Source: an uncultured Oxalicibacterium sp.
Lineage (GTDB): Bacteria; Pseudomonadota; Gammaproteobacteria; Burkholderiales; Burkholderiaceae_D
Assembly (NCBI RefSeq): GCF_913776015.1
Contig: NZ_CAJYMD010000041.1
Location: 1-64,000 of the forward strand
Direction: 5' to 3'
Length of the DNA: 64,000 bases
Shown here: positions 16,491 to 23,878 of the stretch, piece by piece
Numbering within the stretch: the stretch's first letter is position 1
Layout: each line of letters opens with the position of its first letter
Program-made: the position numbers and the translations under genes
The notes under the pieces: model-generated
What the model saw: only the letters and a program-made list of their open reading frames with translations
The model's database searches: none
What the model was told of the DNA's origin: nothing

Positions 16491-16680
16491 ATTGCCTCCC
16501 TCGGTTGCAGCACATCATTCAACAGAACTAGAGAACCACTCTCGCACATTTCAGTTCACGCGTTTGTGAGCGGCATCACTCTACGAGCCAATTCAGCAGA
16601 ATTCGACAATGAACAAGCGACTTAAGGCAGGACACAGCTTGCTGCGAAGATATGTCTTTGCGATTCCTCTCAATGAGACC

Positions 16681-16827
16681 TGGTCGCGAAAAGACCAGCC
16701 TCGAATAATGCCAAGTAATGCCACGTCAATCTCTTACTCACATTGCAAGCAGCAATCGGTTCTAAACGTGGGTCAATATGGATGCAATTTATTCGGAAAG
16801 TGGGGCAGTTTTCGATGCCAATCAACA
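16681..16827 (-). mobile_element. IS21-type left-end relic (copy A)
   Basis: Read on the minus strand from 16827, this begins TGTTGATTGGCATCGAAAAC and continues with the repeated CTGCCCCAC / TTGACCCAC boxes typical of IS21-family ends. It aligns well with 23341-23464, sharing the outer TGTTGATT, GCATCGAAAACTGCCC, the TTCTAAACGT region and the inner AGTAATGCCACGTC block (plus-strand text). Copy B lacks about 30 bases present here. No transposase remains to its left and no opposite end was found, so this is an end fragment. The rest of the 16491-16957 gap holds the sdaA promoter side and the chrA leader. The family assignment rests on copy B, which retains part of istA. Confidence 0.7.
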
Positions 16828-16957
16828 CATCGGGACTTTTTCTTATGGCAATACCTGCGTTGTTCGCTATCATCCCCCGACGACGCTGATGGCATCAGCT
16901 TAATTCGATCCACGCTTATACTTCAGACCTTTCTTGTTTCAGGTCAACCGCTTTCCA

Positions 16958-18214: not shown

Positions 18215-20341
18215 TTAAAATTCTGTTCGCGCTCCTACATAAAAGCGGCGACCAGGTGCGGCTTCAAAGAACCTTTGATTGCCCTCATTCACAATCACTG
18301 ACCCCGCATAGGCCCGGTCAAAGACATTATCAATCCGTCCAAACAACATCACCTTAGTTGCCTTCATATTGAAAACATAACCAGCTCTTAAGTTAAAGAG
18401 TGTATAGCCGCTTGCAGCATCGCTATTTGCATCATTCACATAGACCTTGCTATCGGCACGCATCTCCACGGCCGTTGTCAATGTGTTCCACCAGCGGTAC
18501 TGGAGCTCGGTATAAAGGCTGTGCTGGGGAGCGCCAGGTAATCTATTTCCAGCATCAGTTATGCCTGCACTGCTGCTAAACGCCTTTCGGAAACGAGCCT
18601 CAAGCCACGTATAGGCCACACTAGTCGAAAGTTGGCTACTCCACTCCGAACGCCATGATGCCTCAGCTCCTCGACGTTCGACACCATCGACATTCTGAAA
18701 AATGGCGCGACCGAACTGCGATTGCTGCTGCACGATTTCATTCTTGCTACGGGAATGGAATACAGCCAAGTCCAGCAGATGATGACCCTGCCTGATTTTT
18801 GCACCAATTTCTGCGTGCGTACTCGTCGATGCGCGCAAGCCGAGATTCGGGCCCGTACCGTTAGCTCGGTAGGCCAGTTCTGCGAGCGTGGGTGTTTCGA
18901 ATCCCTGCCCCAGGTTGGAATAGATATTCAAGTTATCGCTGGCACTCCAAACCACGCCAATAACCGGACTGGTTTGGGTATAAACCGTCTCCCCGCTATC
19001 ATCTGGGTTATCCAAAGTGGGATCGGGATTGCGCACAACAAAGTCATCATCAACAGACATCCTGACGCGACTTAAGCGTACGCCAGCAATGGCGCGCCAA
19101 TTCGGCGCAAAAGTCCAGTCTACTTGCGCAAACACATCCGTATTTTTAGCCTTGTCCTTTTCGTCGCGCCGTAAAGCGCCTGCCACACCATTATTATTGA
19201 CGAAGCCGCGACGTCGCTCACTCAGGGAATCAATTTCCACCCCAAGAGTCCAGTTCAGCGGTAGTCCGTTGAACTCTGTTTGATGTCTCCAGTCGAGGCC
19301 AATACCGCCGTAACCACGATCCAGATCAATAACCCCACCAGCCTGAACCAGTGCACCACCTGGAAAGGCCAAGGTTTGAAACACATTGCGTTTCCCGCCA
19401 TATACCCGAGCATTCAGTACATCATGACTGCTTAAGCGCTGTTCGACCACCAGCCCCATCTGCTGTTGCGTAACCGTTTTGCGTGTATTGAACGTGATGG
19501 CACCTGGTGTAACCTGCCGAGGATTCATCTGAAAATCAGCGCGCGTCAGCCCAAGTGGATCTTGCGAGAGCGGTTGATCAATACTGTTGAACACCGCTGT
19601 AATCTTGGTATCCGTAGAGGGCTTCGCGACAATTTTTGCGTTTAGCGTGTTACGTCTGGCTGCGCTGTGATCCCGATAACCATCGGTCGAGAACTGGGTA
19701 ACATCCAAAGTGCCGCCCAGGGCCGCACTCCCCCCACCAATCGATGCACCAATCACACGTTGGTTATCGGATCCTGCGCCCAATGAGAAAGACGCCTCAG
19801 GTTTCAGCGGCGGCTCCTTGGTAAAGACTTGCAATACGCCGCCGGCCGAATTGCCATATAGCTGGGCCATGGGGCCCCGAAGAACTTCGATACGACTGGC
19901 AGACGCCAAACTCGCATTCGAAGACTGGCCCTGCCCATCCGGCATCGTTGCCGGAATCCCGTCAACCAAAATGCGTACACCACGAACACCAAAGGTTGAG
20001 CGCGTTCCAAATCCTCTAATGGAAACTTGCAAATCCTGAGAATAATTCTGCCGCTCGCGTATCTGGATACCCGGCACCACGCCGAGCACTTCCGACAGAT
20101 TTACCAGCGGCGATTGCGCTGCAAACCCATTGATTTGCACCACATCAACGGCCGCAGGCACATCAAAACGATTGCTTTCAGAGCGACTGCCACTGACGAC
20201 AATCTCAGGGAGGGTCTGCGAGGATGGTGAGTCTTGTTCTTGCGCATGCACAATGGATATCGACACACCCAAAACAAATAGCGTAAATACCGGCTTGGCA
20301 CGAAAAGGCATAACGCGACGTCTGGCGATCTTTTTTTGCAT
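18215..20341 (-). CDS. pqqU: TonB-dependent receptor of the PqqU/YncD type (PQQ uptake)
   Basis: The 708-residue protein has a signal peptide ending at VHA (residue 33), a TonB-box-like LPEIVVSG, a plug domain and a 22-strand barrel ending in Phe. Several stretches agree closely with E. coli YncD (PqqU) as I recall it: RQNYSQDLQVSIRGFGTRST, VDGIPATMPDGQGQSSN, the region around GRGFETPT...ELAYRA (here GQGFETPTLAELAYRANG), and a C-terminus with YAGSVIVNEGNQRF then PGRRFYVG. PqqU imports pyrroloquinoline quinone across the outer membrane using TonB energy. The gene next to it encodes a PQQ-type dehydrogenase, which supports the substrate. A terminator separates the two, so it likely has its own promoter. 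Confidence 0.8.
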   Translation of the reverse strand: MQKKIARRRVMPFRAKPVFTLFVLGVSISIVHAQEQDSPSSQTLPEIVVSGSRSESNRFDVPAAVDVVQINGFAAQSPLVNLSEVLGVVPGIQIRERQNYSQDLQVSIRGFGTRSTFGVRGVRILVDGIPATMPDGQGQSSNASLASASRIEVLRGPMAQLYGNSAGGVLQVFTKEPPLKPEASFSLGAGSDNQRVIGASIGGGSAALGGTLDVTQFSTDGYRDHSAARRNTLNAKIVAKPSTDTKITAVFNSIDQPLSQDPLGLTRADFQMNPRQVTPGAITFNTRKTVTQQQMGLVVEQRLSSHDVLNARVYGGKRNVFQTLAFPGGALVQAGGVIDLDRGYGGIGLDWRHQTEFNGLPLNWTLGVEIDSLSERRRGFVNNNGVAGALRRDEKDKAKNTDVFAQVDWTFAPNWRAIAGVRLSRVRMSVDDDFVVRNPDPTLDNPDDSGETVYTQTSPVIGVVWSASDNLNIYSNLGQGFETPTLAELAYRANGTGPNLGLRASTSTHAEIGAKIRQGHHLLDLAVFHSRSKNEIVQQQSQFGRAIFQNVDGVERRGAEASWRSEWSSQLSTSVAYTWLEARFRKAFSSSAGITDAGNRLPGAPQHSLYTELQYRWWNTLTTAVEMRADSKVYVNDANSDAASGYTLFNLRAGYVFNMKATKVMLFGRIDNVFDRAYAGSVIVNEGNQRFFEAAPGRRFYVGARTEF

Positions 20342-20406
20342 TTAGTGGCAGGCAATGTCGCTAAGTAAGTTGTTGGCTGAATGATTGCGCTGATCTTCTC
20401 AGAAAA

Positions 20407-20430
20407 AAGCCGTACACATTGGTACGGCTT
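20407..20430 (-). terminator. Terminator of the PQQ-dehydrogenase unit
   Basis: The stem AAGCCGTAC (20407-20415) pairs with GTACGGCTT (20422-20430). Read on the minus strand it is followed by a T6 run. It lies 22 bases after the dehydrogenase stop and before the receptor gene. Confidence 0.85.
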
Positions 20431-20452
20431 CATATGAGACAGCGTTATCGAG

Positions 20453-21742
20453 TTATCGGGTTCGAGTCACTCTCCATATCGTATTGGATAAATCATCTGC
20501 GATAAGCAGAGCACCACGTGGATCAACCGTGACGCCGACCGGTCGCCCGCGTGTCTTTCCATCCTCACCGCGGAAACCCGTCGCAAAATCGATAGGTTCA
20601 CCAGAAGGTTTTCCATTACTAAACGGAACGAAAATGACTTTATATCCAACGGGCTGATCGCGATTCCAACTACCGTGTTCGCCGACAAAAGCACCATCAG
20701 CAAATTTTTCTCCCATCGCTGGCAGAGAAAAACTCAAGCCGAGAGCGGCAACGTGCGAACCCAAACTGTAATCCGGTTTGATTGCCGCAGCGACTTTCTC
20801 CGGATTTTCCGGCTTCACCCGAGGATCAACGTTTTGACCCCAGTAGCTATATGGCCAACCGTAGAAACCACCCTCACGCACCGAGGTCAGATAATCCGGT
20901 ACCAGATCAGGGCCCAACTCATCACGTTCATTGACGACCGTCCATAATTGTCCGGTTTGTGGTTGGATCGCCATCGCGGTCGGGTTACGCAGCCCTGTCC
21001 CGTACGGCTTATAGCTACCGGTATTTGCATCGATCTGCCATACCATCGCCCGATCCACTTCCGCTTCCATTCCGCGTTCGGTGATGTTGCTGTTGGATCC
21101 GATACCTACATACAAGAAACGGCCGTCCTTACTGACGGTCATTGCCTTGGTCCAGTGATGATTGATTTCAGAAGGTAAGGCGACGACTTTGACAGGCGGC
21201 GCGCTTGCCTTGGTCTCTCCGTCCTTGTAATCGAAGCTGACAAGCTCATCCTGGTTGGCGACGTAAATTTTATTGTTTGCAAAAGCCAAGCCGTAAGGCG
21301 CATTGAGGTTGTCGGCGAATACTGTTTGGATCTCGTAAGTTCCATCTCCGTCTGCATCACGCAGTAAGGTCAGACGATTACCACCTTTGACCTTGGTATT
21401 ACCCTGCGCTTTAATGTAGCCGGCGATCACATCTTTAGGCTTCAGTTTTGCGGCGTTACCACCCCGTCCTTCTGCAACAAGGATATCGCCATTGGGCAAT
21501 ATCAATGTCTGACGTGGAATTCTTAGATCCGTCGCGATCGCGCTGATGCTGTAGCCCTCGGGCACCGTCGGCTTTTGATCACCCCACTCAGCAGGCTGAG
21601 CAATTTTCATCGACGGCAGAATGCGCTGCTGGGGCTCTGGCAATTTAGGGTCAGGGCCTCGCGACTGCACACTATCAGCGTTTTCACTGCAGGCACTCAT
21701 TAAAACGATGCTTGCTGCTGCGAGAGTAAGTCGATATTTCAT
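20453..21742 (-). CDS. PQQ-dependent sugar dehydrogenase family lipoprotein (sorbosone dehydrogenase-like)
   Basis: From ATG 21742 the protein has 429 residues and starts with a lipoprotein signal (MKYRLTLAAASIVLMSACSE, Cys18 in the lipobox). The remainder is a six-bladed beta-propeller of the GSDH/sorbosone dehydrogenase type: PNGDILVAEGRGGNAAKL, GLAFANNKIYVANQDELV, INHHWTKAMTVSKDGRFLYV with the candidate catalytic His, and a late VGVTVDPRGALLIADD blade. Such enzymes oxidise aldoses in the periplasm using PQQ and calcium; this subfamily is biochemically thin and the substrate is unknown. The start overlaps the stop of the membrane-protein gene (ATGA). That overlap decides the start over a 35-residue upstream extension lacking a signal peptide. 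Low-GC relative to neighbours. Confidence 0.85.
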   Translation of the reverse strand: MKYRLTLAAASIVLMSACSENADSVQSRGPDPKLPEPQQRILPSMKIAQPAEWGDQKPTVPEGYSISAIATDLRIPRQTLILPNGDILVAEGRGGNAAKLKPKDVIAGYIKAQGNTKVKGGNRLTLLRDADGDGTYEIQTVFADNLNAPYGLAFANNKIYVANQDELVSFDYKDGETKASAPPVKVVALPSEINHHWTKAMTVSKDGRFLYVGIGSNSNITERGMEAEVDRAMVWQIDANTGSYKPYGTGLRNPTAMAIQPQTGQLWTVVNERDELGPDLVPDYLTSVREGGFYGWPYSYWGQNVDPRVKPENPEKVAAAIKPDYSLGSHVAALGLSFSLPAMGEKFADGAFVGEHGSWNRDQPVGYKVIFVPFSNGKPSGEPIDFATGFRGEDGKTRGRPVGVTVDPRGALLIADDLSNTIWRVTRTR

Positions 21743-22173
21743 TTCACACTCCCGACACGTGGAACACTTAAGCCAATCCAAGCGACGATAACGGCCAGAA
21801 TGGCCACGATCGCAGAGAGAATCAAACTGGACGGCATTGCGGCCCAAGCATCCTTGGCATGCTCAAACGCGTTGAACAATCCAAGTACCCATGTCACTGC
21901 AAGCAATAGAACTTGCGCCAACGGGCGGCCGCCTTTTCTGCTCGCCGTGAAAAGCTGTCCAAGTGCACATAACAAAGCCAACCCACAGAACAACAACCCT
22001 CCCGCATTCAGCCAGGATGCGAAGTTGATCCATTGAATTTGATAGGTCTTGTAATAGACAATGTCGCCCAACAAGCCACCGAGAAAAAGTGGAACGATCC
22101 CCGCTAGCAGAATCGCATGGAGTGGGCCAGGATGGCGGTAGTAAAAGGGAGTCGCAGAAGCGGAGGAATACAT
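21739..22173 (-). CDS. DUF2231-like membrane protein, partner of the dehydrogenase
   Basis: This 144-residue protein has four hydrophobic helices and begins with a HPGPLHAILLAGIVPLFLGG motif like that of DUF2231 membrane proteins, which are often encoded next to sorbosone-dehydrogenase-like genes. It is translationally coupled to the dehydrogenase. A role as membrane anchor or electron acceptor to the quinone pool is an attractive guess; no cofactor motif beyond the His in the first helix is visible. Confidence 0.75.
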   Translation of the reverse strand: MYSSASATPFYYRHPGPLHAILLAGIVPLFLGGLLGDIVYYKTYQIQWINFASWLNAGGLLFCGLALLCALGQLFTASRKGGRPLAQVLLLAVTWVLGLFNAFEHAKDAWAAMPSSLILSAIVAILAVIVAWIGLSVPRVGSVK

Positions 22174-22346: not shown

Positions 22347-22709
22347 TCAATGTGCAGTTTCCGGCATTAGCGTCAATTCAATCACTGACAGCAAATCATT
22401 ATGGTTAAACGGCTTTGTCAGCACTAGGCTAGGGGCGCGCTCTATCTCAGGCGAGTAACCAGACATGAAAATGACAGGCACATTGTTGAGTGTCTCGCTT
22501 TGCTTAATTACTTTTTTTAGTGCAAAGCCATTCATCTCAGGCATGTTGATGTCGGTCAGCAGTAAATCATAATGCCGTTCCCCAAGCATGGAGAACGCTG
22601 CTTTTGCTGATGTGGCAGAGGCAGTTTCATAGCCAGCCTCGCGAAGTAACTCGCCCAGTGAATGGGCAATATCCACATCATCATCAGCAATAAGAATACG
22701 TTTCGTCAT
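22347..22709 (-). CDS. Stand-alone receiver-domain response regulator
   Basis: The 120-residue protein is a bare CheY-like receiver: acidic pocket DDD at residues 9-11, phospho-acceptor Asp53 in LLTDINMPEMNG, Ser83 in FMSGYSP and Lys99 in LTKPF. No output domain follows. It would be phosphorylated in the cytoplasm by a histidine kinase, none of which is encoded in this island. It lies between the DUF2231-like gene (same strand, about 170 bases downstream) and IS remnants, so a link to the PQQ genes is only by position. Confidence 0.88.
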   Translation of the reverse strand: MTKRILIADDDVDIAHSLGELLREAGYETASATSAKAAFSMLGERHYDLLLTDINMPEMNGFALKKVIKQSETLNNVPVIFMSGYSPEIERAPSLVLTKPFNHNDLLSVIELTLMPETAH

Positions 22710-23073: not shown

Positions 23074-23464
23074 TGTCAGGCGAATGCTGCGAAGCGGTCG
23101 TAAGCCCCTTCAAATCCTAACGCTCGAAAATCCAAATGCATTTGTCTGAGGCTGCGTCGTTGCTTACGCGAACTCGTCGCTTCAGTCTTTAACCAGGCTG
23201 AAAGCTTAAACGCGTATTTGTCGAGGGATGTCGGGGAACGCCGATCAGCGTAGGCTGGCTCAATGGTTTCAGCGCGTAGATAGTGCCGGACGGTATTTCG
23301 AGAGATGCCCAGTCACCTGGATATTTTTCTTAGTGACACATGGTCACGAAGGTGCCAGCGTCGAATAATTCCTAGTAATGCCACGTCGACCACTCCAATC
23401 TCCTACTAATTTTTTAAGTAGGATTGTGTTCTAAACGTCGGGCAGTTTTCGATGCAAATCAACA
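22975..23464 (-). mobile_element. Internally deleted IS21-type element (copy B), about 490 bases
   Basis: Both ends are visible as a perfect 11-base terminal inverted repeat: TGTTGATTTGC at 22975-22985 and GCAAATCAACA at 23454-23464. The left end of the element (right side here, 23341-23464) is the leader shared with copy A. It is followed on the minus strand by an istA fragment (23079-23330), then by two 50-base repeats that form the opposite end. Most of istA and all of istB are missing. No clean target duplication is seen (flanks AACTT and CAAGG). The 5'-TG ends with several internal repeats plus the IstA fragment identify the IS21 family. Confidence 0.8.
23079..23330 (-). pseudogene. istA: istA transposase fragment (IS21 family), broken
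   Basis: On the minus strand the frame reads LGISRNTVRHYLR, then EPAYADRRSPTSLDKYAFKL, SAWLKTEATSSRKQRRSLRQ and FEGAYDRFAAFA before a stop at 23076-23078. This matches the N-terminal helix-turn-helix and following region of IS21-type IstA. An in-frame TGA at 23313-23315 breaks the helix-turn-helix. The catalytic DDE domain and istB are deleted, so the element cannot move by itself. Confidence 0.8.
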
Positions 23465-23624
23465 CAAGGCGCTTCTCTTTGCCGTTAATTCGATATTTCA
23501 GCCTCCAATATGTACCGCGGCTTGGAGAGATTTCTAGATACATACCGCCACTGCCAGCTAAACGATATATCTTCTAGCGAGGAGCTGCTTTACGTGCTGC
23601 GACATCTGTTAAAGGCATGGGCAT
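23465..23624 (-). pseudogene. int: P4-type tyrosine integrase, N-terminal fragment cut by the IS
   Basis: From an ATG at 23624 the minus strand reads MPMPLTDVAARKAAPR, a TAG stop at codon 17 (23574-23576), then KIYRLAGSGGMYLEISPSRG and TYWRLKYRINGKEKRL. This is the N-terminal DUF4102 arm-binding domain of P4-family integrases, usually reading PLTDTAIRNAKP...YKLADGGGLYLEV. After 53 codons it stops abruptly at the IS terminus (23464). The gene starts about 180 bases from the 3' end of tRNA-Thr and reads away from it, the normal layout for an island integrated in a tRNA gene. It is too short to have been listed as an open frame. Confidence 0.82.
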
Positions 23625-23802: not shown

Positions 23803-23878
23803 TGGTGCCGGCTGCAGGACTCGAACCCGCCACCCCATGATTACAAATCATGTGCTCTACCTGATGAGCTAAGCCGGC
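23803..23878 (-). tRNA. tRNA-Thr (anticodon TGT)
   Basis: The minus strand folds as a 76-base cloverleaf with encoded CCA. The acceptor stem is GCCGGCT, the D arm is TAGCTCATCAGGTAGAGCA-like, the anticodon loop TTTGTAA sits between CATGA and TCATG, and the T loop is TTCGAGT. The anticodon TGT reads ACA threonine codons, and the sequence resembles E. coli tRNA-Thr(UGU). Its 3' end faces a broken integrase, so it is probably the attachment site of the island. No second copy of the 3' end was found near 16.5 kb. Confidence 0.96.

Follow-up and report, generated by a model that had tools for sequence, protein, structure and literature searches.

PqqU-type receptors and GSDH-type dehydrogenases are repeatedly linked in Burkholderiales: a candidate pyrroloquinoline quinone scavenging gene set in an uncultured Oxalicibacterium

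In the order Burkholderiales, genes for TonB-dependent receptors of the PqqU type are repeatedly linked with genes for dehydrogenases of the GSDH family, mostly in genomes in which synthesis of pyrroloquinoline quinone (PQQ) was not found. The case analysed here is a segment at positions 18215-22173 of a stretch of 64,000 nucleotides (the window) from an uncultured Oxalicibacterium sp. (contig NZ_CAJYMD010000041.1), in which a DUF2231 membrane protein, a GSDH-type protein and a TonB receptor are encoded on the minus strand in this reading order, all in open frames. Residue comparisons and a structural model of the dehydrogenase suggest that the segment is probably a set of genes for the scavenging and use of PQQ. 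The components themselves are already known. Neither the pairing of PqqU with GSDH nor what this linkage would explain was found described in the literature searched, which included the available text of PMC12124388, PMC6881789, PMC13088180 and PMC13412088 and had subscription papers outside its scope; DUF2231 together with sorbosone dehydrogenase was likewise not found there. The features of the segment are as follows.

18215-20341, minus strand: PqqU/YncD-type TonB-dependent receptor, 708 aa
20406-20431, minus strand: likely intrinsic terminator between dehydrogenase and receptor, with a 10-bp stem and a T run
20453-21742, minus strand: propeller of the GSDH type whose leader resembles that of a lipoprotein (Cys18 by eye), proposed as a PQQ-dependent sugar dehydrogenase
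21739-22173, minus strand: DUF2231 protein with four predicted membrane helices, proposed as membrane partner of the dehydrogenase

Linkage of PqqU and GSDH across the order

PqqU neighbourhoods were collected from a family draw of 60 genomes, 35 of them with the receptor, and from an order draw of 399 genomes, of which 131 carry PqqU. The comparison covers 156 PqqU loci with flanks of about 5 kb or slightly more, cut at contig ends; the family-draw receptors of G005, G010, G037, G045, G047, G052, G054 and G058 were left out of the neighbour counts. Unbiased clustering of the frames lying within 2.5 kb of PqqU returned the GSDH family as the largest cluster, present at 43 of the 156 loci, each cluster being identified by one member, the smaller ones remaining unnamed, and clusters of opposite-strand shadow frames (for example, one over GSDH at 29 loci) being set aside by eye. 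With three profiles, GSDH was found near PqqU at 46 loci, 42 of them within 1.5 kb, in 13 of the 28 coded families and in all four orientations. This count retains L218 (79 bits), L227 (gap of 2.4 kb) and L253, L255 and L257 (gaps of 2.8 to 3.9 kb); L204, with a 76-bit match, was dropped from it, probably by the overlap filter. An earlier reading of the window made from its letters (the sequence-only reading) had described the pairing as one on a mobile island. The survey of neighbours shows that it is not special to such islands and recurs across the order, a GSDH-family gene being the commonest PqqU neighbour found.

The 46 GSDH-adjacent loci comprise 29 of a cytochrome-c-bearing type (26 of which have the cytochrome), 11 that are YliI-like and six whose GSDH resembles that of the window. 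Cytochrome c was seen near PqqU at 28 of the 156 loci, 26 of these GSDH-adjacent, cytochrome b561 at 11 and an eight-bladed PQQ enzyme at eight. On the receptor tree, the adjacency trait needs 22 changes. As a control, matches of a B12-receptor model other than PqqU were examined, and four of 136 lay within 2 kb of a GSDH match; this control is one receptor model (TIGR01779) applied to 47 genomes, 46 of them with PqqU and chosen for the pairing. At about 2.7 GSDH matches per genome, simple arithmetic puts the chance of one lying so close to a given receptor at well under 1%.

The full trio of DUF2231, GSDH and PqqU occurs at three of the 156 loci, namely in the window, in the congener G057 and in G377. 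The trio has probably been assembled more than once, because the G377 receptor lies far from that of the window on the tree.

Other neighbours were also recorded. A LuxR-type response regulator, possibly a control system, lies near PqqU at 31 of the 156 loci (L155, L163, L169, L176 and others), one of which is GSDH-adjacent. A YncE-like propeller stands beside PqqU at 13 loci (L077, L078, L082, L083, L129, L228 and others), as yncE does in E. coli.

The receptor

The best sequence matches of the receptor in the Protein Data Bank (phmmer) are the E. coli YncD/PqqU entries 6v81 and 9c4o, at 492 bits, followed by the next match at 44 bits, and 281 of 679 aligned positions are identical to E. coli PqqU. 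In the available text of PMC12124388, the PqqU signature is given as an aromatic residue at position 99 and arginine at 304 and 365. The window receptor carries this signature (phenylalanine in place of Y99, R304 and R365). The comparison took in 11 of the 12 PQQ-contact positions reported in that text, and nine of the 11 are identical or allowed (Q84, F for Y99, Q121, K274, R304, Q308, R365, Y481 and R536), the differing positions being Q310, which is leucine, and N477, which is alanine. The signature is present in 156 of the 157 receptors compared, the remaining one being gapped there, and in none of four other E. coli TonB receptors (FepA, BtuB, CirA and FhuA).

In a FastTree phylogeny of 161 rows, the smallest set holding both the window receptor and E. 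coli PqqU comprises 142 rows and none of the outgroups, of which there are only four, on long branches. The PqqU likeness proposed in the sequence-only reading thus holds both in the residues and in the tree, where the receptor groups with E. coli PqqU, apart from FepA, CirA, BtuB and FhuA; its nearest rows are PqqUs from the family to which the host belongs. The receptor counts as a PqqU under the published residue test, although not under the narrower NCBIfam model NF041535, and it is predicted to transport PQQ. E. coli PqqU (YncD, b1451) is of the same receptor type, the signature and K274, R536, Q84, Q121, Q308 and Y481 being common to both; however, in E. coli pqqU adjoins yncE and not GSDH, whereas the window receptor adjoins GSDH.

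The dehydrogenase

The dehydrogenase scores 40 bits with Pfam GSDH (PF07995; gathering cut-off 25) and 48 bits with DUF7133, also above cut-off. The cut-off of TIGR02604 is not reached, nor is that of TrAA12 (17.5 of 30.9 bits), for which reason the protein is called 'AA12-like' and not filed as AA12. An AlphaFold model built from a 50-row alignment (mean predicted local distance difference test score, pLDDT, 83.6; predicted template modelling score 0.87) has PQQ sugar or glucose dehydrogenases as its top 23 Foldseek rows, and it superimposes on the PQQ domain of Coprinopsis pyranose dehydrogenase (6jt5) with a VIA-align Z of 36.9 and a root-mean-square deviation of 2.7 Å over 333 residues. 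These fold matches, with blades uncounted, place it in the six-bladed PQQ sugar dehydrogenase fold.

H196, R252, N253 and R400 align with H147, R214, N215 and R341 of E. coli YliI, which we take to be the catalytic histidine and the PQQ-contact arginines and asparagine, in a numbering confirmed as the letters H, R, N and R in the YliI sequence. The positions of YliI H147, R214 and R341 are invariant in all 50 aligned rows and that of N215 is kept in 46. YliI (Asd; soluble aldose sugar dehydrogenase, 2g8s) belongs to the same GSDH fold class (Z 30.4); unlike YliI, the window protein resembles a lipoprotein and is paired with DUF2231, and the genes closer to YliI are those beside PqqU in a Nitrosomonas-like genus described below. 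The best fold matches are the AA12 pyranose dehydrogenases of Coprinopsis cinerea and Trichoderma reesei (Z 36.9 to 36.1). In the available text of PMC6881789, where the PQQ contacts of the Coprinopsis enzyme are listed, Arg273, His363, His539, His560, Trp563 and Asn564 are the residues with which R77, H196, H330, H356, W359 and N360 align, the last three lying in a conserved HGSWNR loop. AA12 pyranose dehydrogenases are fungal, that of C. cinerea having a haem b domain, and are about 20 to 24% identical to the window protein. Overall, the fold and the retained PQQ contacts point to a PQQ-dependent sugar dehydrogenase, in agreement with the family proposed in the sequence-only reading.

The DUF2231-GSDH unit

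The start of the dehydrogenase was set by the analyst at an ATG, the listed frame beginning with TTG at 21847, and this chosen start shares four bases (ATGA) with the stop of the DUF2231 gene. Between dehydrogenase and receptor, the likely terminator folds in a 51-nt RNA at -20.3 kcal/mol (z -5.5), with none of 200 shuffles equally good; the site is missing among the 14 sites of a consensus terminator scan. DUF2231 and GSDH thus probably form one unit and the receptor another. A single operon of all three genes is weakened as a candidate by the likely terminator, which makes the dehydrogenase and receptor genes neighbours and not members of one operon.

The DUF2231 protein matches Pfam PF09990 with 30.6 bits (cut-off 26.4), and its model (pLDDT 86.3) has helices at 17-43, 46-76, 83-107 and 114-135. 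The model gave no Foldseek match at E 0.001 or better. Identification as a known cytochrome was set aside on this ground, VIA matches to four-helix proteins (Z 12.3 to 15.3) not being telling. Across the 19 rows of an alignment, H105, D37 and W48 do not vary; H19 does, and binding of haem by H19 and H105 was set aside for that reason. The protein is most likely the membrane electron partner of the dehydrogenase, as judged from gene overlap and conservation.

The DUF2231-GSDH pair is a conserved and widespread enzyme unit. The 80 named GSDH loci compared, kept from at least 592 confirmed ones, come from Pseudomonas, Xanthomonas, Halomonas, sphingomonads and others. In 79 of them GSDH is preceded on its own strand by a DUF2231 gene, which at L322 stands some 1.1 kb away; at the 80th, L325, the contig begins nine bases before the match. 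Alignments drew on 28 loci plus the window (A1, from which L021 and L031, with internal stops, were excluded), on 49 of the 80 loci (A4) and on 18 of the 80 (A5). Pairs of a 'sorbosone dehydrogenase family protein' with DUF2231 in Pseudomonas, Xanthomonas, Paracoccus and others have a GSDH 58 to 82% identical to that of the window; unlike the window, they have no PqqU-like receptor in the flank, such a receptor being found within flanks of up to 6 kb at none of the 80 loci, and therefore the enzyme unit is common without PqqU. Other TonB receptors occur at four of the 80 (A3 scores of 79 to 125 bits). The window GSDH groups with Oxalobacteraceae copies within a Pseudomonas-rich set. Plasmids also carry relatives: 286 of 72,556 records match at E 1e-50, 17 at 60-80% identity and 269 below 60%, and 92 of the 286 are typed as conjugative.

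Producers, scavengers and orphan PqqU genomes

The host genome (3.16 Mb, 82 contigs, 99.88% complete) yielded no PqqC in an order-wide search in which 75 of 399 genomes exceeded the cut-off, and no PqqE above the curated cut-off, only that cut-off counting for PqqE since all 14 controls score below it as well. The absence of pqq genes that the sequence-only reading had noted in the window therefore extends to the whole genome for PqqC and, above cut-off, for PqqE; pqqA, B, D and F were not searched. An eight-bladed PQQ dehydrogenase was not found in the host at E 1e-20, with three of four candidates of the host genome scored, in a search that is positive for the E. coli control and for 106 of the 399 genomes.

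Among the 131 PqqU genomes of the order draw, 44 have PqqC and 87 have none above cut-off. GSDH stands beside PqqU in two of the 44 and in 40 of the 87, while an eight-bladed match is present in all 44. In 20 of these 44 genomes, pqqC lies within 10 kb of PqqU; the available text of PMC12124388 reports pqq/PqqU synteny in four Burkholderiales genomes, by that census's criteria. Sixty-one PqqU genomes are orphans, with neither PqqC nor an eight-bladed match, in a cross-table built from the per-genome rows of searches, the eight-bladed one among them, whose match lists are cut short; 32 of these have GSDH beside PqqU and 53 have GSDH somewhere. All these figures are plain counts, and draft genomes can hide genes.

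A particular group of carriers is the genus g58, which appears to be Nitrosomonas-like from the ammonia-monooxygenase-family genes in six of its eight genomes with PqqU. PqqU in bacteria without PQQ synthesis or a recognised PQQ enzyme, with Nitrosomonadaceae named, is described in the available text of PMC12124388, which reports no PQQ enzyme in 40 Nitrosomonadaceae. In g58, a YliI-like GSDH lies within 4 kb of PqqU on the same strand at seven of the eight loci, and seven of the eight genomes have no eight-bladed match, G410 having one. The Pfam families PF01011, PF13360 and PF13570 are of the eight-bladed kind and not GSDH. The enzyme search of that census, as given in the available text of PMC12124388, used one published profile together with these three families; the census did not search the six-bladed GSDH class, and the words YliI, aldose and sorbosone do not occur in the main text available.

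As a separate observation, three Nitrosomonas-like genomes have a BtuB-type receptor and, about 1 kb away from it, a further GSDH-family gene of larger size (G201:C1:383283, G384:C27:40079 and G410:C17:18633).

Proposed explanation and its alternatives

The proposed explanation is that the receptor, with TonB, would carry PQQ from outside into the periplasm, as its residues suggest, where the GSDH-type lipoprotein would bind it together with calcium and oxidise a sugar or similar substrate, as its fold and residues indicate. Electrons would pass to the respiratory chain, with the DUF2231 protein, encoded by a gene overlapping the dehydrogenase gene, as the most likely membrane partner; many other lineages instead have a gene for cytochrome c near GSDH and PqqU. 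The placement of PqqU beside the DUF2231-GSDH unit would have arisen independently in this genus and in one or more other lineages. More broadly, PqqU in bacteria that do not produce PQQ may often be linked to a six-bladed quinoprotein of the GSDH type, which would explain many genomes with PqqU and no PQQ enzyme. We lean slightly towards the view that six-bladed GSDH quinoproteins, with cytochrome c or DUF2231, are the main clients of PqqU in scavengers and the missing enzymes of orphan carriers, including the ammonia-oxidising Nitrosomonadaceae. If this is true, producers and scavengers could be distinguished by the location of PqqU, which would adjoin pqq genes in the former and GSDH in the latter. 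If six-bladed GSDH is the usual partner of PqqU in scavengers, the question of orphan PqqU could be tested with a few purified proteins, and a gene annotated as 'sorbosone dehydrogenase family' next to PqqU would mark dependence on the PQQ of neighbours.

Several observations weigh against this explanation. The likely terminator parts the dehydrogenase unit from the receptor, and the receptor reaches 613.5 bits with NF041535 ('PqqU'), below the equivalog cut-off of 1200. R77 and H196 were placed on the Coprinopsis enzyme by local alignments of 6.3 and 5.6 bits, the placement of H196 being backed by the YliI alignment and that of R77 not; propellers are common, and fold alone demonstrates no function. 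The named loci without PqqU indicate that the enzyme needs no linked importer. The adjacency trait is clustered on the tree (25 changes versus 39.5 in shuffles), and the control count rises to six of 136 matches within 4 kb, in five genomes including that of the window. GSDH is not beside PqqU in 29 of the 61 orphan genomes, and in eight of the 61 no GSDH was found anywhere. The contrast by PqqC is not significant on independent tree pairs, for which reason the lifestyle contrast was rejected as proof: for GSDH adjacency, 13 independent pairs gave on average 0.5 the same way and 1.0 the other way, and for orphan status 15 pairs gave 2.8 the same way versus 1.2 the other way. Shared descent may explain part or all of this contrast. 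Finally, a second GSDH, of the YliI type and apparently interrupted where contigs C29 and C11 end, is present in the host (G000:C29:30001-39196, L356, and the end of G000:C11, L357). The island as the host's only likely source of a PQQ enzyme was rejected because of this gene. The DNA upstream of the YliI-type gene on C29 encodes two TonB receptors together with a membrane protein and an SCO1-like protein, as labelled by eye.

It is unlikely, in our assessment, that the receptor imports PQQ while the adjoining GSDH lipoprotein is no PQQ enzyme at all, their pairing being due to chance or to hitch-hiking on the island. The lipoprotein shows little sequence similarity to PQQ enzymes of solved structure (at most 43 bits), and the TrAA12 score, the terminator between the genes and the 80 named loci lacking PqqU would fit such a non-PQQ propeller. 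On the other hand, the PQQ contacts and the catalytic histidine are kept and the best fold matches are PQQ enzymes, while the recurrence of GSDH by PqqU, which involves several GSDH sub-groups and 46 of the 156 loci, with 42 of 156 within 1.5 kb against four of 136 control matches within 2 kb, argues against chance.

The possibility that the receptor is a relative of PqqU for another substrate, such as a sugar or a metal complex, so that the linkage would reflect uptake of the enzyme's substrate or metal, appears quite unlikely: the receptor retains the three signature residues together with K274 and R536, the signature is missing from all four outgroup receptors, and like receptors lie within 10 kb of pqqC in 20 of the 44 PqqC genomes, even though the NF041535 cut-off is not reached, Q310 and N477 differ from E. 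coli and three Nitrosomonas-like genomes have a BtuB-type receptor beside another GSDH-family gene. We consider it very unlikely that the genes no longer play any role and persist by chance in a segment undergoing decay. The integrase and transposase pieces are broken, as a dead island would have them, but the three frames are intact, a congener has the set at another place and the PQQ-contact residues of the window are kept. The PQQ scavenging-and-use set is preferred over these alternatives.

The island

The three genes have a guanine-cytosine (GC) content of 0.52 against 0.556 for the window, and they lie in a segment with the following features at its edges.

16663-16829, plus strand: decayed repeat, left edge of the bracketed segment, a copy of the element at 23323-23466
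23079-23312, minus strand: broken transposase piece (phrog_1157 transposase, 30.5 bits; no Pfam match)
23323-23466, plus strand: decayed repeat, right-hand copy, in direct orientation
23409-23573, minus strand: broken N-terminal piece of a tyrosine integrase (Arm-DNA-bind_3, 24.6 bits, just below the cut-off of 27)
23803-23878, minus strand: tRNA-Thr(TGT), island edge, with tRNA-Thr(TGT) at the matching place in both congeners

The two copies of the decayed element, separated by about 6.65 kb, share direct repeats of 72 nt (76%) and 38 nt (87%), and the integrase piece also matches phrog_3423 (33.8 bits, unknown function) and, weakly, the integrase phrog_1 (16.5 bits). In both congeners, DNA matching the window at 10.0-10.7 kb and from 23.8 kb onward lies only about 2 kb apart, and therefore the intervening window DNA is missing or elsewhere there; a YcaO gene (window 12.5-14.7 kb) sits elsewhere in both. 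No attachment site repeating the end of the tRNA was found at the opposite edge, only the tRNA itself matching within the window at up to three mismatches. The segment is thus absent from the site in the two congeners compared and has a tRNA and integrase remains at its edge. For this genome, 'decayed island', the description given in the sequence-only reading, is right.

The same reading had called the gene set a portable module, of which the location of the three genes in an island stands. The conserved unit is DUF2231-GSDH (79 of 80 loci), however, the trio occurs at only 3 of 156 PqqU loci and a likely terminator divides it. A single portable trio was also rejected on the ground that the receptor is nearest to PqqUs of the host's family, the GSDH groups with Oxalobacteraceae copies and the G377 receptor is distant. 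In the congener G057, all three genes are found at another place, with a GC content like that of the flanks and no mobile genes seen by eye within the 20 kb taken, while neither the GSDH nor the receptor of the window has a match in the congener G022. A gene of the chromate-transporter family is the plus-strand neighbour of the three genes, and a lone receiver-domain protein is encoded inside the island at 22347-22709 on the minus strand, with a GC content of 0.457.

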